Shown here: positions 21,287 to 62,839 of the stretch, piece after piece
Layout: each line of letters starts with the position of its first letter
How positions within the stretch are numbered: the stretch's first letter is position 1
Virus record (IMG/VR): IMGVR_UViG_3300046791_000499
Span: 79,094 to 143,093 of that record
DNA from: a virus
Length of the DNA stretch: 64,000 bases
Direction: 5' to 3' (one strand)
Position numbers and translations under genes: made by a program
The notes under the pieces: model-generated
Told to the model about the DNA's origin: nothing
Databases searched by the model: none
The model's input: only the letters and a program-made list of their open reading frames with translations

Positions 21287-22044
21287 GGGCTTGTGCTCTC
21301 CTCGGCCTTGGCCGGCGTAATCATGTCGAGCGTCGGGCTGACCTCGTGGAAGCCGTGGAACGAGACGATGTCGAGCACCACGTACTCGGACGACCGCTCG
21401 CCCAAGCGGTTCCACGTCGCACACCGCTCATCCCATTCGAGATCGCTGATCTGGTCGGGTTTGTCCGTATTGTTCCAATAGCCGTACTCCTCGAGCCCGG
21501 TGTACTCACGGAGGAAGTCGAGCACGCCGCCCATGAGGCTGGCGCCGTCGCAGTAGGGGATCAGGTAGTACCGGCCACCGAGTTCGCGGATGGCGACCGA
21601 GACGCCGAGGTTCCACTTGCTGCGCTGGAAACTGCTCAACTGCGCGCCGTACTTCTGCGTGACCCAGGGGTCGACATCGAGCACGTCCAGCGGGCGAGCA
21701 TCGTAGCCATCGCCGTGGAGGTCAGCGAGGATCTGCGCGTTGACGACCGACACCCGCGAGACCGGCTTGACCCCGATGCGCTTCTCAGCGGACCGCATGT
21801 ACATGCTCACCGATACGACCCGATCGCTCGTGTCCTTGGTCTCCTCACGCCAGACCTCGAAGTCAGCATTTGCTCGCATGAACCATGTGGACAGCGCCTC
21901 TGCTCGCCCTTCGATGATGTCGCGGTAGACCTCGGCTAGCCGAGCACGAGCAGCGGTTTGGCCCTCGCGCTTGATCGTGAACAGGATCGGCCAGAGCGGG
22001 AAGCCCTCGCGGACGCGGTACGCCTCGTAGATTTTGGTGCTCAT
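21283..22044 (-). CDS. Hypothetical 253-aa phage protein
   Basis: The protein begins M-S-T-K-I-Y-E-A-Y-R-V and has a helical N-terminal half with 'WPILFTIKREGQTAARARLAEVYRD'-type amphipathic helices, followed by beta strands ('SVAIRELGGRYYLIPYCDG', about 150-168) and a C-terminal acidic segment. This two-part architecture recurs in uncharacterised phage proteins. ATG 22044 overlaps the preceding stop (ATGA). There is no membrane segment and no known motif. Confidence 0.7.
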   Translation of the reverse strand: MSTKIYEAYRVREGFPLWPILFTIKREGQTAARARLAEVYRDIIEGRAEALSTWFMRANADFEVWREETKDTSDRVVSVSMYMRSAEKRIGVKPVSRVSVVNAQILADLHGDGYDARPLDVLDVDPWVTQKYGAQLSSFQRSKWNLGVSVAIRELGGRYYLIPYCDGASLMGGVLDFLREYTGLEEYGYWNNTDKPDQISDLEWDERCATWNRLGERSSEYVVLDIVSFHGFHEVSPTLDMITPAKAEESTSP

Positions 22045-22316
22045 CGTGTCTTTCGTTTCTTGCGAACGCTGCCGTAGGTCATGCGGAACCCATCGTCGGT
22101 CAGGTTGAAGGCCCGCGGATTTCCGGGCTCGACCACGGCCAACCCCATGCCGACCAGTTCGGTCCACTCGGTGAAGTCGTCCGAGTCCGTCTCTGCGCAG
22201 TAGTAGTTGCGGTGGCCTCGGAGCATGCCGCCGGTGGCGTAGCGCATCATGTCGAGATGTCGTTGCGTGACCTTCGGCGTGTACCGGATCGGATCAGGTG
22301 GGGCGTGGTTGGTCAC
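22041..22316 (-). CDS. Small hypothetical protein, winged-helix-like C-terminus
   Basis: 91 aa. 'VTQRHLDMMRYATGG' is followed by 'SDDFTEWTELVGMGLAVVE' and 'FNLTDDGFRMTYG', a helix-helix-wing pattern typical of small winged-helix proteins in which a 'LT.dG' strand closes the wing. Possible DNA or RNA binding is inference. The C-terminus is basic (RKKRKTR). It is coupled to the next gene by ATGA. Confidence 0.6.
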   Translation of the reverse strand: MTNHAPPDPIRYTPKVTQRHLDMMRYATGGMLRGHRNYYCAETDSDDFTEWTELVGMGLAVVEPGNPRAFNLTDDGFRMTYGSVRKKRKTR

Positions 22317-22331
22317 GATGCATCCGACCGC

Positions 22332-22655
22332 TCAGGAAGTTGGCGGATTCCTGGCGGCCACATGAGCATCCAGGTCACGAATGCGGCGTCGGATCTCGTC
22401 GCGCCCATCGTATGCGTGGACCGTCTCCCGCCCATTGGCGATGGACCACGAGATGTTGTCAGTGGCTTGCTGCTCGAGCGCGACAAGCCGCTCGCGCTCG
22501 CGGATCTCGACCGGTACAACCACCGCCAGCCGAGTTGCTCGGCGCTCGGCGATCCTCCGCGCACGCTGCCGAGCCCGACGCCACCGGCGAAGGTCTGGGT
22601 CGACGAGCAGCCAGACGAGTAGGCCCGCGGCGAGGATGACCAACTGCTCGAGCAT
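22332..22655 (-). CDS. Small membrane protein with coiled coil
   Basis: 107 aa from ATG 22655, preceded by GGGAG at 8 bp. Residues 1-20 ('LEQLVILAAGLLVWLLV') form one membrane segment; residues 22-100 are Arg/Glu-rich coiled coil on the cytoplasmic side. The topology recalls spanin or holin accessory proteins, but no lysis motif is present. The start overlaps the stop of a 30-codon gene as TGATG. Confidence 0.6.
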   Translation of the reverse strand: MLEQLVILAAGLLVWLLVDPDLRRWRRARQRARRIAERRATRLAVVVPVEIRERERLVALEQQATDNISWSIANGRETVHAYDGRDEIRRRIRDLDAHVAARNPPTS

Positions 22656-22747
22656 CAATACGGCTCCCACCAGAGATGGCCCCACAGCCACGCGATGTCA
22701 CTGCTGACGTGCACGGGCTCTCGCTGGAGTAGCTGGTACGGCGTCAT
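22655..22747 (-). CDS. Very small coupled ORF (30 aa)
   Basis: A 30-aa frame, M-T-P-Y-Q-L-L-Q to W-W-E-P-Y, fully nested in the operon: its ATG overlaps the previous stop as ATGA and its stop overlaps the next start as TGATG. Such double coupling is unlikely by chance. It is Trp-rich (four Trp in the last 12 residues). Function unknown. Confidence 0.5.
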   Translation of the reverse strand: MTPYQLLQREPVHVSSDIAWLWGHLWWEPY

Positions 22748-22992
22748 GCTCGTGCTCGTCGGCTCGCGTGCGCGATGATCCCATCGTAGGTCTCGCGCAT
22801 CTCGTCTTCGGTGTAGTTGCGAGAGTCCCACTCGTTGGTGCCACCCTCGCGGGCGTACCTCTCGTGTGAAGCCCGGAACATGTCGCGCCACTTCTCGAAC
22901 CCGAGCCCGCGCAATTCCTTCACACAGTCTGGTCCGTCGTCGATCTCGCGCAGGTACCTGGCGATGGCCTCGTGAACGGTCAGCCTGCTCAT
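22744..22992 (-). CDS. Hypothetical 82-aa protein
   Basis: It starts M-S-R-L-T-V-H-E-A-I-A-R-Y and continues as a compact, mostly helical acidic protein with 'GLGFEKWRDMFRASHERYA' and a 'EDEMRETYDGII' helix. There is no recognised domain. The ATG at 22992 overlaps the preceding stop by 4 bp. It is one of the string of small coupled genes from 31.9 to 19.7 kb that are probably early or accessory. Confidence 0.6.
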   Translation of the reverse strand: MSRLTVHEAIARYLREIDDGPDCVKELRGLGFEKWRDMFRASHERYAREGGTNEWDSRNYTEDEMRETYDGIIAHASRRARA

Positions 22993-40212: not shown

Positions 40213-41205
40213 TCATCGATCCGGCCAGTAGGCTGCCGGGCTCTCGTGGTCGGGGCGGTTCGCGGCAAGCCACGCCTTGCACTCGGCGACCGCTTGATCT
40301 TTCAGCTCGTCGTGGCGGTCCCACCATGCACGATGGGCCTTCGTCTGCTCGGGATCCGAAGGCCGCTCGCTCGGGATGGGCAGGTCGACACGGTGCTCGG
40401 CCGTGAACAGGACCGCGTCGAGCATCCGGGCTTGGATGGCCGCCACCGCGTCCTTGCACTGGTCCTCCTTCCACTGACCGCGGGCTCGGCCTTGGGCTTC
40501 GAGCGCCTCGTTCAAGTCATCTTCGAGCCGTACCGCCCGCACCCGATCGACCACGCAAAAGCGCACGACCGTGTTGCGCTCGTACACGTCGCGAGAGTCG
40601 ATGCTGTACTCCTCGATCCGATACCGGCGCACCGCGTTGTATAAGATGGCGTCCCGATCCCAAAAGCCGGACTTGTAGAAGAACGACCCGCGCCGGTTCC
40701 CCAAGGCGTCGAGGATGTTGCTGTGCATGCCGTGGCTCGTGCGCTGTTTGGTCCAGCCGGCCGGCATCGTCACGGGGCAGAACAGCTTGTCGTCGGCGAA
40801 CTGCTCGCCGAACACGAAGCCCAGCGCCTCGTAGTCCGCTCGGACCTTGGAGTCACGCGGGTACGGCAGCGTCTCGCTCGCGACGGCTTCGCTCTGGCCT
40901 TGGGCGATCTGGACGTCGAAGGCGTCGGGGCCGATGGCCATCGCCATCATGGTGAAGGTCCCGATCGCGCCCGGGGTTTGAGTGTTGGTTGGTCGACTGG
41001 TCTCGGTCATGCCGGTCCCAACAGCCGAGCCGTCGTCGCATTCCCCGAAGCGCTTGAACGCGCGGTGCTCGAGCGCGCAGGCGAGGCATTGCCCAACGTG
41101 AGCGGCGATCGGCGATGTGAGCGGGCGCCCGAGCAGCCGGCTGGCCTCGCCACCCAGCGCAGGATCCGTGCACCCGATCGGTGCGTCGGCGGAGCCCACG
41201 GTCAT
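40213..41205 (-). CDS. Hypothetical 330-aa protein with N-terminal Cys motif
   Basis: Starts M-T-V-G-S-A-D-A-P at ATG 41205, overlapping the HTH gene's stop by 4 bp. Residues 33-50 contain 'HVGQCLACALEHRAFKRFG', an H-x3-C-x-x-C unit like small zinc-finger anti-sigma domains. The rest (from an internal ATG at residue 66) has 'YRIEEYSIDSRDVYERNTVV' and a long helical stretch. Two genes fused in frame is one reading. Next to an HTH gene it could be a regulator, which is inference. Confidence 0.55.
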   Translation of the reverse strand: MTVGSADAPIGCTDPALGGEASRLLGRPLTSPIAAHVGQCLACALEHRAFKRFGECDDGSAVGTGMTETSRPTNTQTPGAIGTFTMMAMAIGPDAFDVQIAQGQSEAVASETLPYPRDSKVRADYEALGFVFGEQFADDKLFCPVTMPAGWTKQRTSHGMHSNILDALGNRRGSFFYKSGFWDRDAILYNAVRRYRIEEYSIDSRDVYERNTVVRFCVVDRVRAVRLEDDLNEALEAQGRARGQWKEDQCKDAVAAIQARMLDAVLFTAEHRVDLPIPSERPSDPEQTKAHRAWWDRHDELKDQAVAECKAWLAANRPDHESPAAYWPDR

Positions 41206-41456
41206 GGCGTCTCGACCTCCCGGAACAACTCGCTCCGAGGCACACCGAGCGCTTTCGCCATGGCGTCGAGCCGCTCGGGCTTCGGCCACCTTGGGTGTTC
41301 GCCGAGGTACTCGAACCGCAGCTTGGTCGCCGCCTTGTAGGACGCCCCGCCCAAGCCGATCGCCTTGGCGAAGGCGGCCTCGGTCATCTCGCTTTTGGCG
41401 AGCAGCCGGCGGACGTTGTAGGAGAGCAGGCCCGCGGCGGAGAGCGTCGCGGTCAT
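41202..41456 (-). CDS. Small helix-turn-helix (XRE/Cro-like) regulator
   Basis: 84 aa. 'NVRRLLAKSEMTEAAFAKAIGL' then '...PKPERLDAMAKALGVPRSELF' is the helix pattern of Cro/C1-type HTH proteins: a turn near residue 28, a DNA-reading helix around 34-46 with an Arg/Lys-rich face, and a terminal 'ALGVPRSELF' helix. It is the only clear small DNA-binding regulator in the window and could bind the shared operator-like dyads at 43.3, 59.1 and 61.1 kb. ATGA-coupled. Confidence 0.62.
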   Translation of the reverse strand: MTATLSAAGLLSYNVRRLLAKSEMTEAAFAKAIGLGGASYKAATKLRFEYLGEHPRWPKPERLDAMAKALGVPRSELFREVETP

Positions 41457-43042: not shown

Positions 43043-43324
43043 TCAGATGACCTCCGCTGCCATGACGGCGAAAGTTGTCCCGCGGTGGCCGCTCATCTGG
43101 ATGAAGAAGCCGACCCCCGTGTTGATGTTGCGCATGATCGTACGGTTCGCCTTGCGCTTGCCGACGAGGTCGGCGCCCATCTCGCTCATCTTGGTGATCT
43201 CGCCTTCCCACGCGTGCTCGTTCGAGCCGGTGGAGCGCAGGGTCAGCCTGACGCGGGTGCCCACGGGCATGGCGAACAGTTGCGCGGCGGCGGCTTGGGC
43301 GATCTCGGTGGCGTCGATCATCAT
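43043..43324 (-). CDS. First gene of the 34.7-43.3 kb operon, hypothetical
   Basis: 93 aa (starts M-M-I-D-A-T-E-I; ATG 43324 or 43321). It is a small beta/alpha protein: 'AMPVGTRVRLTLRSTG' and 'VGFFIQMSGHRGTTFAVMAAE'. It follows the promoter-like element at 43334-43361 at a distance that predicts a nearly leaderless transcript. Probably early-expressed; function unknown. Confidence 0.55.
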   Translation of the reverse strand: MMIDATEIAQAAAAQLFAMPVGTRVRLTLRSTGSNEHAWEGEITKMSEMGADLVGKRKANRTIMRNINTGVGFFIQMSGHRGTTFAVMAAEVI

Positions 43325-43333
43325 TGCCCGGCT

Positions 43334-43361
43334 ATTATGTACCGCCGCGCAGGATATACAA
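43334..43361 (-). promoter_or_regulatory. Promoter element, copy a (operon 34.7-43.3 kb)
   Basis: On the minus strand TTGTAT (43361-43356), 16 bp spacer, CATAAT (43339-43334). Start of transcription is expected 6-7 bp further, about 3 bp before the ATG at 43324. The spacer is GC-rich and part of an imperfect dyad. It resembles copies b (59065-59092) and c (61115-61142), including a TATTGTRTA core. A host sigma-70 promoter with an overlapping operator is the simplest reading. Confidence 0.6.
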
Positions 43362-43408
43362 TAGTCCGACGCTGATTTATTTGCGCGCGAATACGCCCGG
43401 CTGGCGCG

Positions 43409-54250: not shown

Positions 54251-55024
54251 CTACGCCGCCATCGCGAGCGAGTCGAGTTGCGCGGTCAGTTCTTCGAGCA
54301 CCATGTCGTGGTCCTTGGAATCGGTGACGTCGAGCAGGACAGCAAGGCGAATGACCTCGGCCTGAGCGGGCCGGCGTCCGCGGGTCGTCATGCGCTCGCC
54401 GGCAGGCGAGGCACCTTCGCTGAGCAGTTCGATCTCGGCCGCGTGAGCGTGGAGGATCTTGTGCAAGAGCTTCCGGCCCCGATAGATCCTGCTCATGATC
54501 GTGCCGATCGGGCAGTCCATGATCTCGGCGATCTCTTTGAGCGAGAGCCCGTCGAGATCGACGTAGGCAACCGCGTCGCGGTAGTTGGCCGGCAACAGGG
54601 CGAGCGCGTTGCGGATCATCTGCTGCGTCATCGCGGCGCACACAGCCTCCTCGGGTCCAGGCGGTTGGCTGGTCGAGTTCGCCACCGCAACCGACGAACC
54701 GAGCGAGCGCATCTGCGAGCTGACCGAATCATGGAACTCGCGCTGCCGACCTCGACGGTGGTAGCCGTTGATGAAGGTGTTGCGCAGGATCGTGAACATC
54801 CACGCTTTGATGTTGCTGCCTTCGTCGAACGTGTCCCAGAATCGGAAGGCACGGACGAACGAGTCCTGCACGAGATCCTCGGCTTCGGCTGGGTCGCGAG
54901 TCAGGCGCATCGCGGCACCGTACAGACTGTCGCCGAGCGGGAGCGCCAGCGCTTCGAACCGACGACGATCGGCGGCGGACATGACTCGACAACGAGAATG
55001 GTCTTGGGCTTCGGTGGCGGACAT
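54251..55024 (-). CDS. ECF (group IV) sigma factor
   Basis: 257 aa from ATG 55024. Sigma region 2 at about 25-95 ('AEAEDLVQDSFVRAFRFWDTF', 'IKAWMFTILRNTFIN') and region 4 at about 135-188 ('ALALLPANYRDAVAYVDLDGLSLKEIAEIMDCPIGTIMSRIYRG') are unmistakable. Region 3 is absent, as in ECF factors. A 65-residue C-terminal tail, Asp/Glu- and Ala-rich, is extra. No adjacent anti-sigma factor. A GGGAAT box upstream of the start (55043-55052 area) could be its own ECF promoter; this is weak. ECF sigmas are rare in phages and may switch the host polymerase to late genes. Confidence 0.9.
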   Translation of the reverse strand: MSATEAQDHSRCRVMSAADRRRFEALALPLGDSLYGAAMRLTRDPAEAEDLVQDSFVRAFRFWDTFDEGSNIKAWMFTILRNTFINGYHRRGRQREFHDSVSSQMRSLGSSVAVANSTSQPPGPEEAVCAAMTQQMIRNALALLPANYRDAVAYVDLDGLSLKEIAEIMDCPIGTIMSRIYRGRKLLHKILHAHAAEIELLSEGASPAGERMTTRGRRPAQAEVIRLAVLLDVTDSKDHDMVLEELTAQLDSLAMAA

Positions 55025-56478: not shown

Positions 56479-56892
56479 TCAGCGCGGCGTGCCCCAGTCC
56501 GTGCGCATGACGAACTTGACGGTGCGCGAGCGCTCGCCGGTCGGGTCGACGTAGCTGCAGCCGTGCTCGCCAAAGAGCTTGCCGCCAGTCATGTGGATCG
56601 TGCCGGTCTTGTCGAACACGCGCTCGGACACCCGTGACGTCTCGGCAACCGACTCGCCCCAGCCGAGCATCAGCCAGCCCACCGAGTCACGGTCCGCCAC
56701 GACGCCGGCAAGTTCGGCGACGGTCTCGCGGACGTTGCGGGTTTCCCATCCGCCGATCGCGTTGGCGAGCAGGAAGTGCGGACGGTCGAGGTCGTGCGCG
56801 AGCAGCAGTTCTCCGGTCTCCATGGAGTAGAAGTCGACGTAGTTGCGGCGGGTGGAAGAGGTCTCGGCTGTCTCGGTCGCGGCTGCTTGCAT
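56479..56892 (-). CDS. Hypothetical 137-aa protein with leaderless-type promoter
   Basis: Starts M-Q-A-A-A-T-E-T-A-E-T-S-S at ATG 56892. A beta/alpha protein with 'VDFYSMETGELLLAHDLDRPHFLLANAIGG' and a 'FDKTGTIHMTGGKLFGEHGCSYVDPTGERSRTVKF' C-terminal beta domain. Its promoter has TACATT just six bases before the ATG, so the mRNA probably lacks a 5' leader. Such genes are often early. No enzyme motif. Confidence 0.58.
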   Translation of the reverse strand: MQAAATETAETSSTRRNYVDFYSMETGELLLAHDLDRPHFLLANAIGGWETRNVRETVAELAGVVADRDSVGWLMLGWGESVAETSRVSERVFDKTGTIHMTGGKLFGEHGCSYVDPTGERSRTVKFVMRTDWGTPR

Positions 56893-56927
56893 GTTTTCAA
56901 TGTAGCCGCACGCCGCACGCAGATCAA
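56893..56927 (-). promoter_or_regulatory. Leaderless promoter for the gene at 56479
   Basis: Minus strand TTGATC (56927-56922), 17-bp spacer, TACATT (56904-56899), then GAAAAC and the ATG at 56892. The stretch CGGCTACATTGAAAACATG is identical to that before the gene at 60618. Start of transcription would fall at or next to the A of ATG. Confidence 0.5.
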
Positions 56928-58743: not shown

Positions 58744-59022
58744 TCACCCTGGGATCGCCCCCTGGCTGGGCTCGATCATCCAGGTCATGTTCGAGCTGGA
58801 TCCGCTCGGGCGGTTGGTCGAGATGTCGACCTCGGGGATCGCCAGCCGGACCCGCTGCATCGCACCATCGCGGGATGAGATCTTGATCTGGTCCTCCGTG
58901 GCCGGCGCGCCGTGGAACACCTGCAGGTCGAACGCATCGAACCTGCCACCGGCGATCCCGTGCTGCGCGATCGCACCTTTCAACGCGGAGATCAGTTGGT
59001 CGATGGAGTGCTGGTTGGTCAT
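58744..59022 (-). CDS. First gene after promoter copy b, hypothetical 92 aa
   Basis: Starts M-T-N-Q-H-S-I-D-Q-L-I at ATG 59022. Helix 'IDQLISALKGAIAQHGIAGG' then beta strands 'FDLQVFHGAPATEDQIKISS' and 'SSSNMTWMIEPS'. It has a GAGGAG ribosome site and promoter copy b at 59065-59092, the same control as the genes at 43043 and 61166. Probably early. No family. Confidence 0.55.
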   Translation of the reverse strand: MTNQHSIDQLISALKGAIAQHGIAGGRFDAFDLQVFHGAPATEDQIKISSRDGAMQRVRLAIPEVDISTNRPSGSSSNMTWMIEPSQGAIPG

Positions 59023-59064
59023 GGGTCGCTCCTCGCGTGCGGGATGAATCGCTCCGACCACTGC

Positions 59065-59092
59065 ATTATATACCCCGCGCGGCGGTATACAA
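59065..59092 (-). promoter_or_regulatory. Promoter element, copy b
   Basis: Minus strand TTGTAT (59092-59087), 16-bp GC-rich spacer, TATAAT (59070-59065). With copy c it shares about 50 of 54 positions from the CTATTGT core through the 5' leader. The spacer and -10 form an imperfect dyad TATACC ... GGTATA, as for an operator overlapping the promoter. Confidence 0.62.
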
Positions 59093-59154
59093 TAGACCGA
59101 CGAAGATAATTCGACCGCTCGATATCGCTCGAGGTTGGCCTCGGATCCACCCCG

Positions 59155-59201
59155 CCCCGCGGGGGCGTGAGCGAGCGAAGCGAACGAACGGCGCCGCGGG
59201 G
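59155..59201. repeat. Structured element 1: GC-rich stem with GAGCGAAGCGA-type loop
   Basis: CCCCGCGG...GCG (59155-59167) pairs with CGCCGCGGGG (59192-59201) allowing a bulge; the 24-base loop is purine-rich (GAGCGAGCGAAGCGAACG). It is the first of several hairpins in the gene-free stretch 59093-59426 upstream of promoter copy b. Confidence 0.45.
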
Positions 59202-59206
59202 ATCGC

Positions 59207-59259
59207 AAGTGGCCGGAGGCCCGGAGTGAGCAGAGCGAACGGAGGGTCTCCGGCCACTT
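59207..59259. repeat. Structured element 2: 16-bp stem with purine-rich 21-base loop
   Basis: AAGTGGCCGGAG (59207-59218) pairs perfectly with CTCCGGCCACTT (59248-59259); four more pairs with one G-T extend it (59219-59222 with 59244-59247). The loop, 59223-59243, is again of the GAGC.GAGCGAACG type. Loop length equals that of the element at 61403-61440. Confidence 0.55.
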
Positions 59260-59396
59260 GGGGTTGGGGCCGCGGTCCTGAAACGAGCGCAGCGAGTGCA
59301 AGGGCTGCGAGCGCGGGGCCGTGTGGCGATGGCGAGCGCAGCGAGGCAAGCCGCGCGGCCGGCTGGGTTTGCGCAGCTCGGCGAGAGCGAGCGGGA
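59260..59396. other. Gene-free structured DNA with repeats of a GAGCGCAGCGA motif
   Basis: No coding frame of quality is seen. The motif GAGCGCAGCGA or close variants recur at about 59285-59295, 59333-59343 and 59383-59390, each between short GC-rich inverted segments (GGCC/GGCC, CGGCC/GGCCG). It reads as a series of weaker relatives of elements 1 and 2. Confidence 0.4.
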
Positions 59397-59412
59397 CCCC
59401 GGCGAACCGGGG
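59397..59412 (-). terminator. Hairpin with tetraloop, terminator of the DUF932 gene
   Basis: CCCCGG-CGAA-CCGGGG: a 6-bp stem extended by GGG/CCC across an A-C mismatch to 59393-59416. On the minus strand the loop is TTCG. It lies 14 bp after the stop of the gene at 59427. No T-run follows. Probably a terminator or mRNA-stabilising hairpin. Confidence 0.5.
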
Positions 59413-59426
59413 CCCCGCTCCGAGGC

Positions 59427-60515
59427 TCACGCGATGGCGAGCCGGTCCGCGTCGGGATGCTCGGCGATCGCGGTCATGTTGATGTCGCTGAACTCGCCGA
59501 AGACTTCGGCGACGGTGAACGACCGCTGTGCCATGACCATGGCGACGTCGAGGCCCCGCTTGATCGCGGTGGCACCCGCTCCGAATGCGCCCGCGTTGGC
59601 GCGGCTACCCGCATCGCGACCGGCGTGATGCGTGTGGTACTCGGTCAGGGCATTCCATAGGCCCCAGTACGTACCCTTGGCACCCGGCAGATCCTGGCCG
59701 GTCCCGGTCTCAAACAGGCGTTCGATCTCGGGCAAGCGCCGACCGTTGCGGACCGCGTCGTCGGTTTGCTTATAGACCCCGCCGAGGAATTCGACGATCC
59801 GATCCTGGCCGCCGAGTACCTCGCGTGAGGCCAGGTAGCGGTATGCCTCGCCAGCGGCGGTAAGGCGAGCATCGATCTGCTCGATCTTGCCGGCGACATC
59901 TTCGAGCCGCTGCGCAGCCTTGCCGCGATGCAGGATCTTGAAAATGCCGTCCGGCGTGTTGGTGCGCTTGCCGGTGCTCGGGTCGATCCCGATCGCAGCG
60001 GACAAGGTGTTATGGCAGACCACTCGGATCGGCGTGATGCCTGCTCGGATCGCTAGGGATCCATCGTGTGCGTGCGCGAGCAGTACGTATTTGTCCACCG
60101 TGTCTTCGCCCTGGATCACGATGGGATCGCCCTTGATCTTGGCGAGAACCCACACGCGTTTTCCGTCCATGAGAACGCCGGCCGTCTCCAGTTCGACGAG
60201 CCCGCTCGCGAGCCACGGCTCGAACCAGCCGAACGCGTCGGCATTCTGCAGGGGCTCGAAGTCGGGCCCGACGCTGGCGATCACGCGCTTGGACTCGACG
60301 CCGTTCGCGTCCGTGTCGATGCGAATGATCGACTGGCTCGGAGTCGAAACGAGCCCGCCGTCGATCGTGGTCAGGTTCGGCGAGGTCTCAACTCGCCAGT
60401 CCAGGCCCGCGGCGATCATCGCCTCCGCGATCGTGGGTGGGTGGTCCAGTTTGACGCCGAGGCCATGCCAGGGAGTCGCGCCTACAAACATCATCGAAGT
60501 AACGTGGTGTGTCAT
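59427..60515 (-). CDS. DUF932 phage/plasmid protein
   Basis: 362 aa from ATG 60515. DUF932 (TIGR03299-type) pattern: 'TPWHGLGVKLDHPPTIAEAMIAAGLDWRV' at the N-terminus, 'VGPDFEPLQNADAFGWFEPWL' (about 95), 'RVVCHNTLSAAIG' (about 170-182) and the helical 'KAAQRLEDVAGKIEQI' region. The family is widespread on phages and plasmids; its molecular role is unknown, with links to DNA maintenance. It is often expressed early and at high level. It has a weak upstream promoter and a hairpin after it. Confidence 0.85.
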   Translation of the reverse strand: MTHHVTSMMFVGATPWHGLGVKLDHPPTIAEAMIAAGLDWRVETSPNLTTIDGGLVSTPSQSIIRIDTDANGVESKRVIASVGPDFEPLQNADAFGWFEPWLASGLVELETAGVLMDGKRVWVLAKIKGDPIVIQGEDTVDKYVLLAHAHDGSLAIRAGITPIRVVCHNTLSAAIGIDPSTGKRTNTPDGIFKILHRGKAAQRLEDVAGKIEQIDARLTAAGEAYRYLASREVLGGQDRIVEFLGGVYKQTDDAVRNGRRLPEIERLFETGTGQDLPGAKGTYWGLWNALTEYHTHHAGRDAGSRANAGAFGAGATAIKRGLDVAMVMAQRSFTVAEVFGEFSDINMTAIAEHPDADRLAIA

Positions 60516-60577
60516 CGGAGTATCAGCCTTTCGTGCGGTTGCCCGCGTATCGGAATCGTTGGAGTTCGGGAGAGAAT

Positions 60578-60617: not shown

Positions 60618-61010
60618 TCAGCCTGCGCGGAACCCTTCCATGATGATGACCGGGCCGGAGATCCAGCCGTCCGGCCAGTTGATCCGGCGGGTCGCGTGCA
60701 TGTTCGGGAGCAGGCGCGCGGTCGTGTGCATGGCGTATGCCTCTTCGCCATCCATGAAGGCATCGACGGGCTTGATCGTCCCGCCGAGGCGTGCCTGCAG
60801 TTCGGGCAGGGTCGGGCGGTTGGTGGGATCTCGCAGTTCGACAACCTCGAATCCACCGGGCTGGATCGTGGTCAGCTTGGCCGTGGCCGTCGCGGGGGAG
60901 TCGACCGTGATGGTCAAGGCCGCGGCCGTGTGGGTGTAGGTTTGGACCACGCGCGCGTCAGGCGAACGCGTGGTGGATGGGGGTTGTTGGCCGTTTTCAG
61001 TGGCGGACAT
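60618..61010 (-). CDS. DUF3846-like protein with leaderless-type promoter
   Basis: 130 aa from ATG 61010. C-terminal part 'LGGTIKPVDAFMDGEEAYAMHTTARLLPNMHATRRI' then 'ISGPVIIMEG' follows the DUF3846 pattern (GG.I..v...d.e..am.....G.LPN..AT, I.G.vvi.g). The N-terminal 55 residues are Thr/Ala-rich strands. DUF3846 proteins are small phage proteins of unknown function, often next to DUF932 genes and anti-restriction genes. Its promoter matches that of the 137-aa gene. Confidence 0.55.
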   Translation of the reverse strand: MSATENGQQPPSTTRSPDARVVQTYTHTAAALTITVDSPATATAKLTTIQPGGFEVVELRDPTNRPTLPELQARLGGTIKPVDAFMDGEEAYAMHTTARLLPNMHATRRINWPDGWISGPVIIMEGFRAG

Positions 61011-61045
61011 GTTTTCAATGTAGCCGATTCTGGCCGCGCTGTGAA
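61011..61045 (-). promoter_or_regulatory. Leaderless promoter for the gene at 60618
   Basis: Minus strand TTCACA (61045-61040), 17-bp spacer, TACATT (61022-61017), GAAAAC, ATG. CGGCTACATTGAAAACATG is shared with the region before 56892. Confidence 0.48.
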
Positions 61046-61114
61046 CAGTCAGGCGCAGGTTTTCGACCACTGTATCCGGTTCGGATCACCGGTCGATTTA
61101 TTTTCGCCTGGCTA

Positions 61115-61142
61115 TTGTGTACCGCCGCGCGGGGTATATAAT
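61115..61142 (+). promoter_or_regulatory. Promoter element, copy c (rightward operon 61.2-62.8 kb)
   Basis: TTGTGT (61115-61120), 16 bp, TATAAT (61137-61142), with the same CCGCCGCGCGGGGTA spacer and following leader as copy b. The transcript start is about 61149, 17 bp before the ATG at 61166. The imperfect dyad overlaps the -10 box. Confidence 0.65.
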
Positions 61143-61165
61143 GCAGGGGTCGGAGCGAATCACCC

Positions 61166-61384
61166 ATGACCACCGCCAAGCCCACCGTCATCATCATCCC
61201 CGTCCCCGCGCGCGCTGACTCGCCGGTCTACCTCCCGAGCGACGAGAGCCAAGCGGCGACCCGCCGCGAGATGGGGCGCATGGGCCTCGGCAAGCTGCTG
61301 ACCTCGCAGCCGAAGCTCACCGCCGCGCAAAAGCGCGACGCCGAGGCGAAAGCCAACGCGGCGAAGTGGGGGATGGCCAAGTAG
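61166..61384 (+). CDS. First gene of rightward operon, hypothetical 72 aa
   Basis: Starts M-T-T-A-K-P-T-V-I-I-I-P-V-P-A-R at ATG 61166. A hydrophobic strand at the N-terminus is followed by a Lys/Ala-rich helix 'LTAAQKRDAEAKANAAKWG'. It is driven by promoter copy c. The stop codon TAG lies inside the 5' arm of the long inverted repeat at 61379. Function unknown. Confidence 0.55.
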   Translation: MTTAKPTVIIIPVPARADSPVYLPSDESQAATRREMGRMGLGKLLTSQPKLTAAQKRDAEAKANAAKWGMAK

Positions 61385-61462
61385 GCTGCGCCGGTTCGGG
61401 GCGAGGGTCCGAAGCAAGCGAAGCGAGCGCAGGGCCCTCGACTGGTACGGCGCAGCCTACTT
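61379..61462 (+). repeat. Structured element 3: 15-bp perfect inverted repeat enclosing a second hairpin
   Basis: AAGTAGGCTGCGCCG (61379-61393) is exactly complementary to 61448-61462. Inside it, CGAGGGTCC (61402-61410) pairs with GGGCCCTCG (61432-61440), one G-T pair, around a 21-base purine-rich loop containing AAGCGAAGCGAGCGCA. It spans the gap between two co-directional genes. It may be a terminator, an mRNA processing site, or a protein-binding RNA. Confidence 0.6.
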
Positions 61463-61487
61463 GATCCCAACCACGGAGATCCCGATC

Positions 61488-62011
61488 ATGACCACTTCAA
61501 TCGACTGGAACGCCCGCGCCCGCGCGCAGTATCTCGACCCCGCCGCCGCCGTCGCCCGCGTCATGCGGGAGCCCACCGAGCGCGAGCAGCTCAGCCGCGC
61601 GAGGTACATGCTCGCGTTCACCCGCAACCCACAGTACCGGTTCGACCTGCTCGCCAGCGACATCCCGGCCGAGGTCGTGTCCGCGCTCGAGGCCATCGTG
61701 GCCAACCTTGCTCCCACCACCGACGGGGCCGTGCTCGCGCTCGCGGAACGGTCTACACGCTCGACCAACTGGTCGACTCGCGGCAGTCGATTGAGTCGGA
61801 CCTGCTCGCGTACATGCGCGGCGAGGGCCCACCGCCGACCCGCGAGAACGATGCAAAGGGGATCGACGGGGTGACCCTGCTCGATCGCCTGACTACGGAG
61901 ATCATCCGACGCAAGGCGTTGCCGAGCGCTGGACCGACGGCCGTGCACTACGAGGTCATGCCCGACGGCTCCGACCCGATTCGATTCTCCAACACCGTGC
62001 TGTGCTTTTGA
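61488..62011 (+). CDS. Hypothetical protein of about 174 aa, apparently frameshifted
   Basis: ATG 61488 with GGAG 9 bp upstream. Coding for 85 residues ('WNARARAQYLDPAAAVARVM' to 'TTDGAVLALA'), then the frame fails near 61742. The next frame continues at once with 'TVYTLDQLVDSRQSIESDLLAYMRGEG' and 'VTLLDRLTTEIIRR' to TAG/TGA at 62011. A one-base deletion in the GC run CTCGCGGAACGG would explain it. The ORF starting at 61814 is only its C-terminal part. No domain known. Confidence 0.5.
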
Positions 62012-62350: not shown

Positions 62351-62839
62351 ATGGACCACGACGAGCGAGAGGCTGCAGCGGTCGCGTTCGGTCGAGCGCT
62401 GCGCGAGGAATCGGCCACCGAGCCCGAGCGCATCGCCTCGAACGCCAGGGCCTACCGACAGCATATGCTCAAGGCTCGCGGGCAAACGCCAAACAGGCCA
62501 CAACGTCGGCGAGGGACCAGGCGTCAGCGAGCACGTCGCGAACTTCGGCGCACCTGCCTACAGCGCCAGGGCTACAAGTGCCACTACTGCCAGATCCCGA
62601 TCTCGGACATGGACGGCACCGCCACCCTCGATCACGTCATGCCCGTGTCCAAGGGCGGCGCGGTGTTCGACCTCGACAACTGCGTCGCTGCGTGTGGACC
62701 GTGCAACACCGCCAAGGCTGACGCATTGCCATCTGAAATAAACCTGCGCGCTCGACTGATCTCAGGCCACTTGCCCGAGCATCCAGTCAGCGAACTCGGT
62801 CACGAGCCCGAGCGTCTCGCCCGGAGTGACGACTCGTGA
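62351..62839 (+). CDS. HNH endonuclease
   Basis: 162 aa. The HNH signature: C77-x-x-C80 ('YKCHYCQIPI'), D94-H95-V ('TLDHVMPVSKGG'), N110 and C115-x-x-C118 ('CGPCNTAKAD'). The zinc is held by the two CxxC pairs, and H95 with D94 would bind the catalytic metal. The first 65 residues are a basic helix for DNA. The C-terminal 26 residues overlap the convergent gene by 78 bp. Phage HNH enzymes act in packaging, homing or host DNA degradation. It closes the operon driven by copy c. Confidence 0.85.
   Translation: MDHDEREAAAVAFGRALREESATEPERIASNARAYRQHMLKARGQTPNRPQRRRGTRRQRARRELRRTCLQRQGYKCHYCQIPISDMDGTATLDHVMPVSKGGAVFDLDNCVAACGPCNTAKADALPSEINLRARLISGHLPEHPVSELGHEPERLARSDDS

Follow-up and report, generated by a model that had tools for sequence, protein, structure and literature searches.

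In phage lambda, the operators OL and OR overlap the boxes of the promoters PL and PR, with three dyads at each promoter. Lytic phages carry families of near-identical early promoters. In cluster A mycobacteriophages, the stoperators are asymmetric sites, 20-30 in number, that lie mostly away from promoters (PMC6550527). Here we describe a promoter region that occurs in two near-identical copies (b and c), together with a third related site (a), in a 64,000-nt window, i.e., the whole stretch of DNA analysed (positions 79094-143093 of the 143,093-bp virus record IMGVR_UViG_3300046791_000499; G+C 65-66%). The explanation that suits these sites best is a duplicated promoter-operator module: a familiar, ordinary kind of phage control in an unfamiliar phage.

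The window encodes a portal protein, a terminase and an apparent tail sheath alongside many orphans, and the phage is large and myovirus-like. Searches of IMG/VR gave no homologues of the first genes after promoters b and c, of the DUF932 protein between them or of the terminase, and the tail sheath gave there a single 20-residue match that was of no use; the putative capsid protein had no match in the phage records searched, and the terminase relatives are distant (about 32%). By these comparisons, the lineage is one without a close relative in the collections searched. The phage encodes an ECF-type sigma factor (54251-54982, minus strand) that scores above the cut-off of TIGR02937, its best-scoring model being SigH_actino at a score below that model's cut-off. 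Because the best matches of this protein are bacterial MAGs (53-59% identity), two of which carry the label Polyangia or Myxococcales, the host is probably a member of Polyangia (Myxococcota). Elsewhere in the record lies an adenylosuccinate synthetase homologue (G000:C1:14508-15782, L004, in whole-record numbering) for which PurA models outscore PurZ—the enzyme of 2-aminoadenine phages—with all scores below cut-offs. In the same numbering, the 119-bp repeat of the record ends (G000:C1:1-127, 142975-143093) has a third copy inside the record (22862-22988), directly after a TnpB-like gene (21936-22861), and the end repeat may therefore be an assembly artefact or the mark of a mobile element rather than the true genome ends.

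Copies b (59045-59117, minus) and c (61090-61162, plus) align without gaps over 73 bp, of which 65 are identical (BLAST E about 3e-19). The block takes in an AT-rich upstream element, the -35, the dyad and spacer, the -10 and the start of the leader, so that it spans about -55 to +15 of both promoters, and in a per-10-bp profile the identity drops to background on either side. Within it, the 28-mers from -35 to -10 (59065-59092 minus; 61115-61142 plus) differ at one position. Across all 143 kb of the record, no further place matches the 73-mer at more than 38/73 positions, a value within the 34-40 matches that 30 Markov-1 random windows of equal dinucleotide composition give; the match between b and c is therefore far beyond chance, and the similar matches at random GC-rich sites against which the first-pass annotation had wished it checked did not turn up. 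That annotation had described near-identity across about 54 bp with about four differences: the near-identity is real and sits where it was placed, but the differences number eight in 73 bp and the extent was drawn too short, as some 25 bp ahead of the -35 are conserved too.

The two promoters face outward, 2 kb apart, and between them a DUF932 / TIGR03299 phage/plasmid-like protein is encoded (59430-60533, minus). Promoter b is followed by the gene of a 92-aa orphan protein (58744-59022, minus; no Pfam or PHROG match; poor structure model) and promoter c by that of a 72-aa orphan (61166-61384, plus; no Pfam or PHROG match), and the two products have no evident similarity by eye. The earlier proposal of a duplicated control module is upheld, in that the shared block stays within the regulatory segment, the genes that come first after it are apparently unrelated and a third member exists; we infer that b and c are the product of a recent duplication of this ~73-bp block.

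Several further features surround these promoters. The gene run begun at promoter c is closed by an HNH endonuclease gene (62351-62839, plus), and its second open frame (61493-61900, plus) has an apparent break near 61750, continuing in another frame into 61814-62011, which appears to be a frameshift or a sequencing error. Very strong nested hairpins with variable stems and GAGCGAAGCGAGCG-like loops cluster at 59145-59430 and 61378-61470, the latter folding at -63 kcal/mol across the stop codon of the gene for the 72-aa orphan. Within the record these loop motifs occur only in the hairpin cluster, bar two isolated matches, and are accompanied by no U-tract; the hairpins may be terminators that insulate these two promoters. 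A second repeated promoter pair, CGGCTACATTGAAAACATG, lies on the minus strand at 56890-56908 and 61008-61026, identical over 19 bp. The ATG follows the end of its -10 (TACATT) by 6 nt, and both mRNAs would therefore be leaderless; the 61045 site of this pair is third among the sigma-70-like sites.

The -10 boxes of copies b and c are TATAAT without a mismatch, set 16 bp from -35 boxes of fair quality (b: -35 TTGTAT at 59087-59092 and -10 at 59065-59070, minus; c: -35 TTGTGT at 61115-61120 and -10 at 61137-61142, plus). Under a sigma-70 weight matrix—an approximate E. coli matrix—b is the highest-scoring site of the whole record, c the fifth and a the sixth. Their hexamers are 16 bp apart, inside the 15-19 bp taken to define a sigma-70-type promoter upstream of a gene. 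All three sites are intergenic and directly upstream of genes, the starts of which follow the -10 by about 10-43 nt, and each has, equally far ahead of the -35 (about 10-20 bp), an AT-rich stretch that may be a UP-type element. An ECF-sigma promoter was considered in view of the ECF sigma factor of this phage, and was rejected because the sites show sigma-70-type boxes without the GGAAC-type -35 that known ECF promoters have.

Superimposed on these boxes is a 33-bp imperfect palindrome with a half-site of about CTATTRTRTACC, centred on the same base at c (plus), b (minus) and a (plus), and in this register the left arm holds the -35 and the right arm the -10. The dyad occupies 59063-59095 on the minus strand at b (CTATTGTATACCGCCGCGCGGGGTATATAATGC, spacer 16), 61112-61144 on the plus strand at c, and 43332-43364 at a (CTATTATGTACCGCCGCGCAGGATATACAATAG), where the sequence is promoter-like on both strands and the gene lies on the minus strand. 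Counted on the sequences, 11/16 pairs form at b, confirming the imperfect dyad that had been noticed over the spacer, and 9/16 at a. Dyad scores of >=11/17 are found at about 0.2% of genome positions, and part of the symmetry arises from the -35 and -10 being alike in reverse complement. Between b and c there is one difference in the 33-bp dyad as against seven in the 40 flanking bp, a disparity that is suggestive of stronger constraint on the dyad while not significant on its own, and the GC-rich spacer is conserved at 16/16 positions. In the 143 kb the dyad occurs at three sites, all of them at promoters, and the next best is far weaker. With three sites only and no homologues, constraint and recent shared ancestry are not cleanly separable.

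The main argument for a bound regulator comes from site a. This site matches c at 27/33 positions on the plus strand and 20/33 on the minus strand, and its 11-bp GC core matches at 10/11 on the plus strand (i.e., opposite to the gene) and 3/11 on the gene strand. On the minus strand its boxes read TTGTAT-16-CATAAT, with a -35 side that is likewise similar to the upstream side of b. The first gene after promoter a is predicted to encode a 93-aa protein of unknown function (43043-43324, minus); with only some 10 nt between the -10 and its ATG (43324), the mRNA would have almost no leader. A search for a plausible plus-strand gene after the site gave none. With direction taken from the genes, the promoter at a would thus read against the orientation of the dyad. 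As the core is kept while the direction appears reversed, the dyad would be bound by a regulator instead of being a mere promoter part: contact with polymerase would not explain a reversed core, whereas a dimeric regulator would.

We consider it probable, with some reserve, that these are strong sigma-70-type promoters duplicated along with the operator of a regulator common to them, in what is probably a Polyangia phage. In such a scheme, host sigma-70-type RNA polymerase would read sites a, b and c as strong promoters, and a dimeric DNA-binding protein, most likely one of the phage's own, would bind the dyad and block polymerase at all three, so that their small operons would be switched on and off together. 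Unlikely, to our minds, is the more unusual version, in which one palindrome could be fired either way, the regulator's half-sites doubling as -35 and -10, in a myxobacterial phage lineage; it is suggested by the promoter-like sequence of site a on either strand.

The best-placed candidate for the regulator of the dyad, and no more than a candidate, is an 84-aa XRE-like helix-turn-helix protein encoded in the run of genes that follows site a (41202-41456, minus; weak HTH_3/RHH_1 matches). Its model has five helices (mean pLDDT 70), and Foldseek pairs it with Cro/C1-type domains (P22 c2, 434 Cro and C.AhdI among them; E 7e-3 to 0.3); if it were the regulator, it would close a negative feedback loop. 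Two clear HTH_3 proteins score above the curated cut-off (G000 66440-66592 and 62696-62836), and neither gene (G000 66.4 and 62.7 kb) has a dyad copy beside it. Candidate HTH proteins are thus present in the record, and none is linked to the dyad. Integrase, resolvase, ParA-type ATPase and S24 repressor domains were sought in the record and none was found (PF00589, PF00239 and PF00717 gave no match); a lysogeny switch is therefore not called.

A simpler account would make these plain, strong, unregulated early promoters, alike through what polymerase needs in an AT-rich upstream element, boxes and initial transcribed sequence, and through recent duplication, and symmetric by accident. The boxes are indeed among the strongest in the record, the equidistant AT-rich stretch suits such promoters, lysogeny genes did not show up among the families tested, and the first genes are small orphans, which are typical of early phage genes. 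Yet polymerase reads little of the GC-rich spacer, and it is exactly this part that is unchanged between b and c and whose core is kept at site a on the opposite strand; we therefore hold unregulated promoters to be possible but doubtful. The earlier idea that the conserved leader perhaps binds RNA or protein finds no support, nor does that of an RNA element such as a riboregulator or protein-binding RNA. Copies b and c do share a conserved stretch of about 20 nt beyond the -10, but the leaders are short (about 17 nt at c and about 36 nt at b), do not fold more stably than shuffled sequences (z about +1), match nothing in Rfam and have no counterpart at site a. At c, moreover, the stretch holds a probable Shine-Dalgarno (GGAG, 61152-61155, 10 nt before the ATG at 61166). 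At b, the conserved GGAG is too far from the start for use—the likely ribosome site there is GAGGAG (59029-59034) before the ATG at 59022—and inheritance by recent duplication is therefore its simplest explanation. An RNA element accordingly strikes us as very improbable.

The dyad might instead be bound by a host regulator or nucleoid protein, through which the phage would time its genes to the state of the host. Phages do use host regulators, and the common register of all three sites would fit one. Against this, the half-site plus core was found in one of 318 Polyangia genomes at one mismatch, the same as for a backwards control and hence a chance-level match, and the GTDB species genomes searched contain no exact match to the motif. 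Being essentially absent from the 318 genomes, the motif is unlikely to be the site of a widespread host regulator, and we view this alternative as improbable, mindful that the true host may be outside the set and that host sites could be more degenerate. The motif was likewise not found in the seven genomes with relatives of the ECF sigma factor, among IMG/VR contigs searched with its DNA pattern, or among phages and plasmids in a distant blastn search, and searches of the literature for phiC31 inverted repeats, for early promoters of lytic phages and for sigma factors of Myxococcota phages brought nothing to light.

The duplicated promoter-operator module, as we favor it, offers three testable predicted promoters and one candidate operator, all in a phage for which the collections searched gave no close relative. 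Should the dyad prove to be a shared switch, it would mark operons that are co-expressed during infection and provide a route to the phage's regulator. The arrangement of b and c recalls lambda PL and PR, in that two near-identical operator-promoters point outward from a central segment of ~2 kb and the operators overlap the boxes. However, there is one dyad per promoter here in place of three, the central segment encodes the DUF932 protein and no recognisable repressor, and neither an integrase nor an S24-type repressor was found; the repressor between outward promoters, the integrase and the cleavable repressor that define a lambda-like immunity region are therefore not in evidence here. As with the operators and stoperators of cluster A mycobacteriophages, one binding sequence recurs at several places, including an early promoter (PMC6550527), although here it takes the form of only three near-symmetric dyads, all at promoters, and these are not stoperators as so defined. 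With the early promoter families of lytic phages, the sites share strong promoters for host polymerase that are conserved from the upstream element to the -10, and they differ from these in that the GC core of the spacer is conserved as well, and with dyad symmetry.
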